Source: Thermococcus siculi (GTDB taxonomy: Archaea > Methanobacteriota_B > Thermococci > Thermococcales > Thermococcaceae). From it: DNA of 64,000 nucleotides. The notes below the pieces were generated by a model that was not told the origin of the DNA, ran no database searches, and was given only the letters and a program-made list of their open reading frames with translations. The DNA lies in assembly GCF_002214505.1 (NCBI RefSeq), contig NZ_CP015103.1:806001-870000 (forward strand), in the 5' to 3' direction. This document shows, piece after piece, positions 1,437 through 24,857 of the stretch. Each line of letters starts with the position of its first letter. Within the stretch, counting starts at the first letter, position 1. The position numbers and the translations under genes were made by a program.

Positions 1437-1446
1437 ATTTATAAAC
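1437..1446 (+). promoter_or_regulatory. Stable-RNA promoter (TATA box) before the 5S remnant and tRNA-Asp
   Basis: ATTTATAAAC preceded by purine-containing GCAAA is a canonical archaeal TATA box. It lies about 25-30 bases upstream of the 5S rRNA remnant and ~70 bases upstream of tRNA-Asp, the spacing expected for a 5S-tRNA-Asp transcription unit. No nearer TATA box is seen for tRNA-Asp, so this promoter probably still drives the tRNA. Confidence 0.6.
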
Positions 1447-1467
1447 TAATCCCGGGAGGTTGGTACC

Positions 1468-1508
1468 GGTACGGCGGTCATAGCGGGGCGGGGACGCCGC
1501 CGGCCACT
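1468..1508 (+). pseudogene. 5S rRNA gene with internal deletion (remnant)
   Basis: The segment begins GGTACGGCGGTCATAGCGGGG, the 5' end of Thermococcales 5S rRNA as I recall it, and passes directly into CGGGGACGCCGCCGGCCAC, its 3' end. About 80 of the usual ~120 bases (loops B, C, D and E) are missing, leaving the helix I strands GGCGG and CCGCC. It lies between a stable-RNA TATA box and tRNA-Asp, where a 5S gene stands in relatives. It cannot make a working 5S rRNA. Either the chromosome carries a real deletion between G-rich repeats, or the assembly has collapsed a hairpin-rich region. Confidence 0.7.
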
Positions 1509-1514
1509 CCAAAC

Positions 1515-1592
1515 GCCCGGGTGGTGTAGCCAGGCCCATCATACGGGACTGTCACTCCCGTGACTCGGGTTCAAATCCCGACCCGGGCGCCA
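1515..1592 (+). tRNA. tRNA-Asp (GTC)
   Basis: Full cloverleaf: acceptor strands GCCCGGG (1515-1521) and CCCGGGC (1582-1588), discriminator G, and encoded CCA (1590-1592). The anticodon arm is CGGGA-CTGTCAC-TCCCG with anticodon GTC. The T arm carries GGTTCAAATCC. No intron. It follows the 5S remnant by six bases and probably shares its promoter. Confidence 0.95.
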
Positions 1593-24294: not shown

Positions 24295-24834
24295 TCACTT
24301 CACCATGTCAACAGCTATCGCTCCGATTACCGCGAAGGTGCTTATAAGCACGGTCGCGTTGAGGTACTGGGATGAGGTGAAATCCGCTATCCAGTTTATT
24401 CCGTAGAGGTATATCAGCCCCGCGGAGATCAGGTATGAGATTATAGCGACAGTGAGTAGCCTCTTCGGGATGTGAAACAGCTCCTCCCTCTTGAGGTTGC
24501 CTATCCTGGATTTGGCTATGAAAAGGTACGCGACCGTCAGGGTCATCAGGAAGATGGCCATGGAGCGCCCGAGGGATATATCCTTAGCTATCTCCCACAG
24601 CTCACCCGTGAAGAGGAACGGGAGGGCAAACGTTATCGCCCCCACTATCTCCTGCGCTATGTCGTCCCAGCCGAGCTTGTCGGGAGCTTTGTTTCTCTCG
24701 GATTCCTCCCTTAGGGCCTCTATGCTCTCGTAAATTTCCTCGAGTTTCGCCTCCATATCGGTTCGCCTTTCGTTTTGGATTCCGTGCTCAGGTTCGGGTT
24801 TCATCATCCGGTCAGCATTGGATTCACTCATCAT
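24295..24834 (-). CDS. Integral membrane protein, possibly DUF2391-like
   Basis: 179 residues: a charged N-terminal segment with a coiled-coil-like stretch (MEAKLEEIYESIEALREE, ~35-55), then about four to five membrane helices (EIVGAITFALPFLFTG, MAIFLMTLTVAYLFIA, LLTVAIISYLISAGLIYLYG, VLISTFAVIGAIAV). The long upstream frame is ignored because a TATA box (CTTTATAAC, ~24859-24867 minus strand) lies ~27 bases before ATG 24834, giving a near-leaderless message. It is the first gene of an operon with the TOPRIM protein, so a membrane partner for that protein is the natural reading, unproven. Confidence 0.75.
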   Translation of the reverse strand: MMSESNADRMMKPEPEHGIQNERRTDMEAKLEEIYESIEALREESERNKAPDKLGWDDIAQEIVGAITFALPFLFTGELWEIAKDISLGRSMAIFLMTLTVAYLFIAKSRIGNLKREELFHIPKRLLTVAIISYLISAGLIYLYGINWIADFTSSQYLNATVLISTFAVIGAIAVDMVK

Positions 24835-24857
24835 CGCAGAATAAACTTCCCGGGAAA

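Follow-up and report, generated by a model that had tools for sequence, protein, structure and literature searches.

A tRNA-Asp-linked 5S rRNA gene reduced to its two ends in the genome of Thermococcus siculi

5S rRNA genes in the Thermococcaceae

Thermococcus genomes have been reported to carry one 16S-23S operon together with two 5S rRNA genes (PMC5823998, PMC5730676, PMC3968343, PMC7137780), and two 5S genes are found in published genomes of both Thermococcus and Pyrococcus (PMC5823998, PMC5730676, PMC3968343, PMC7137780, PMC6640164). In Pyrococcus, 5′ precursors of 5S rRNA with leaders of 54-63 nt have been observed, and FAU-1 was shown to degrade pre-5S RNA in vitro (PMC5627344). A stub of the T. 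siculi 5S gene, which is the subject of the present analysis, was not described in the literature searched.

The search of the family covered 94 genomes, and its near-closed subset comprised 39 genomes, other than that of T. siculi, assembled in two contigs or fewer. Two complete 5S genes were present in all 39, and in 36 of these a strict pattern recovered a complete-length 5S gene, with its interior intact, followed by tRNA-Asp. In the other three (G029, G030 and G032), the 5S match overlapped the coordinates of the tRNA-Asp match, which corresponds to the same arrangement. Moreover, the two 5S copies were identical in seven of the eight genomes tested and differed by a single base in the eighth. 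This identity fits gene conversion between the copies, and because of it we infer that they are probably interchangeable and that one of them is expendable.

A 5S gene stub in front of tRNA-Asp

The window, that is, the whole stretch of DNA analyzed (64,000 nucleotides), corresponds to C1:806001-870000 of a one-contig T. siculi genome of 2,029,167 bases, with a completeness of 99.94%. The 5S-tRNA-Asp unit of this window is composed of the following features:

1438-1445, plus strand: TATA box TTTATAAA of the unit, with the same position and sequence in the aligned relatives
1470-1486, plus strand: 5S rRNA gene, initial 17 nt, without mismatch to the complete 5S copy present elsewhere in this genome (L001)
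1487-1488, plus strand: two extra G at the junction, identified by the junction analysis and not accounted for by a single deletion
1489-1505, plus strand: 5S rRNA gene, final 17 nt, likewise without mismatch to the complete copy
1506-1514, plus strand: spacer between 5S and tRNA, ACTCCAAAC, with an additional C relative to the ACTCAAAC of the closest relatives in the alignment and the spacer list
1515-1592, plus strand: tRNA-Asp (GTC) with encoded CCA, found by ARAGORN and by Rfam (57.2 bits)

The 36-nt stub at 1470-1505, read directly from the sequence as TACGGCGGTCATAGCGG-GG-CGGGGACGCCGCCGGCC, is the remnant of a 122-nt 5S rRNA gene, whose first and last 17 nt are joined through GG. All 34 nucleotides derived from the 5S gene are identical to those of the complete copy, and the net loss, which is internal, amounts to 86 nt. 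A first, sequence-only reading had proposed a 5S gene reduced to its two ends before tRNA-Asp, with TATA box and tRNA intact, and this was confirmed by the 34 matching nucleotides and by the integrity of both the TATA box and the tRNA. Its estimate of about 80 missing bases was correct as to an internal loss and is here refined to 86 nt net, while the segment that it gave as the 5′ end stands except for its last two G, where the genome's own copy reads AGCGGCGGGG.

The stub no longer matches the full-length 5S rRNA model (RF00001), and no RF00001 match was found in positions 1300-1700 of the window up to E = 10. As in a pseudogene, its position is homologous to that of the intact genes of relatives, and what remains of it derives from both ends of the gene. 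The closest relatives, which carry the full gene, align on both sides of the gap, identity being about 84-85% on the upstream side and 95-99% across the 5S end and the tRNA. Since no other sequence similar to the stub with up to three mismatches occurs in the window (none being expected), and both flanks align with the intact 5S-tRNA-Asp loci of relatives, a resemblance to 5S by chance is regarded as excluded on these comparisons.

In the surroundings of the unit, a 220-amino-acid open frame lies immediately upstream at 743-1405 on the minus strand, divergent from the 5S-tRNA-Asp unit, and the nearer relatives share about 80-88% identity with it at the DNA level. We take its product to resemble a ScpB-type protein. 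A tRNA-Lys (TTT) is located at 1830-1907 on the plus strand, about 240 bases 3′ of tRNA-Asp, and the stretch similar to this region is found on the opposite strand or in another place in several relatives. Farther along the window, a C/D box RNA match (sR46, Rfam, 67.2 bits) was observed at 24786-24838 on the minus strand.

A complete second copy and the distribution of the deletion

Rfam revealed exactly one 5S match in the T. siculi genome, at C1:2020051-2020172 on the minus strand, with 84.1 bits (cut-off 38). This complete gene of 122 nt has its own TATA box, and its terminal 17-mers are the same as those of the stub. The proposal that the organism depends on another 5S copy is therefore supported by the presence of one complete gene where relatives have two. 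As for the tRNA, the similar loci examined among the 44 tRNA matches of the genome, taken as a part of them, corresponded to tRNA-Glu, His, Gly, Arg, Thr, Pro and others, and the tRNA-Asp (GTC) at 1515-1592 is apparently the sole tRNA-Asp gene of the genome.

The short-5S pattern occurred in one of 115 genomes of the phylum, solely that of T. siculi, and no deletion common to relatives was found among these 115 genomes with this pattern. G061 and G088 gave 5S matches of 88 nt, which were considered as candidate deletions and rejected, the genes being cut by contig ends. In a scan of broader genome contigs, a collection that may leave out the window's own genome, the sole match was an exact one in an Acidobacteria contig (L052:4070-4109), which could be due to chance or to another short stretch resembling 5S; viral contigs gave no match to the pattern.

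The junction

The longest prefix and the longest suffix that the stub shares with the full gene are of 17 nt each, leaving two G over. The motif CGGGG is present near both ends of the break, in partial support of the suggestion that a G-rich recombination site was involved; however, the junction is not recovered by any single deletion. An exact loss, in one step, of the sequence between the CGGGG repeats predicts AGCGGCGGGGACG, whereas AGCGGGGCGGGGACG is observed, and no split of the stub fits. The stub can be reached equally well by several two-step readings, such as losses of 1-3 nt and 83-85 nt, or of 78 nt and 8 nt, which are indistinguishable from one another. Slippage or end joining with slight imprecision at the flanking short G-rich repeats would be a plausible origin.

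The same features could also be produced by a sequencing, PCR or assembly artefact, if a polymerase or an assembler had passed over the GC-rich and structured middle part of the gene, which lies between short repeats. The full 5S gene is strongly self-complementary (-66 kcal/mol), CGGGG is present near both break ends, a polymerase jump over such a structured gene in PCR could give this kind of junction, and the stub is unique among the 115 genomes. Nevertheless, the genome is a single contig of high completeness, and each of the 39 near-closed genomes of the family holds the same structured gene intact twice. Furthermore, no surplus bases should remain after the collapse of an exact repeat, yet two G are present, which is indirect evidence that disfavors a simple assembly collapse. 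An artefact, including one of PCR or cloning, is considered unlikely.

Possible fate of the stub transcript

The sequence-only reading had also considered a short stem RNA serving as leader of tRNA-Asp. Such an RNA is possible as a transcript, and a new function for it, either as a short hairpin RNA or as a leader aiding tRNA-Asp processing or expression, could be imagined, given that helix I of the 5S survives and is able to form a hairpin between an intact promoter and an intact tRNA. However, the hairpin (-17.1 kcal/mol) does not exceed its shuffles in stability (z = 0.58), whereas the full 5S does (z = -2.14), and it shows no sign of function. The stub is known from one genome of one species, and any 5S gene in these species has the same ends, so that a functional RNA derived from the 5S gene seems highly improbable.

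A probable deletion in a redundant 5S copy

The most probable explanation, in which we have good though incomplete confidence, is that one of the two redundant 5S genes underwent an internal deletion specific to this species, with the promoter kept to drive tRNA-Asp. The deposited sequence contains the deletion, conserved flanks and a complete second copy, and the relatives lack the deletion. In the lineage of T. siculi, the 86 internal nt would have been deleted from the copy immediately upstream of tRNA-Asp. Such a loss may have come about by replication slippage or end joining at the short G-rich repeats of this strongly self-complementary gene, and a small imprecision may have left the two G. 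The leftover helix-I hairpin would be unable to serve as 5S rRNA, which would be supplied by the second, complete gene, and the stub transcript would presumably still be processed to tRNA-Asp. The retention of promoter and tRNA may be explained by the need for tRNA-Asp: with this tRNA gene apparently single, selection should keep both, while the 5S part may decay.

Two observations count against a deletion: the junction is not given exactly by any single event, and, as the copies of relatives are normally identical, gene conversion would be expected to repair it unless it is recent. The stub would have arisen after T. siculi diverged from the nearest relatives sampled; since its 34 nt equal the genome's own complete gene and many relatives have the same ends, the comparison gives no finer date.

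If the deletion is real, T. siculi offers a natural test of a Thermococcus-type archaeon living with one 5S gene, against two in all 39 of the other near-closed family genomes searched, and a redundant rRNA copy would have been caught while being lost. Annotation tools can be expected to list a single 5S gene in this genome and to pass over the stub. Overall, this looks like an ordinary, small and lineage-specific loss of a redundant gene copy, of modest general interest. In comparison with the tRNA-Asp-linked 5S genes (RF00001) of Thermococcaceae, the locus has the same position, promoter and gene ends, with tRNA-Asp following, and differs in lacking 86 internal nt and any Rfam 5S match at a permissive threshold. 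With rRNA pseudogenes and redundant rRNA copies lost by deletion, from which no distinguishing feature was found, it shares the same configuration, one copy being broken and the other complete.
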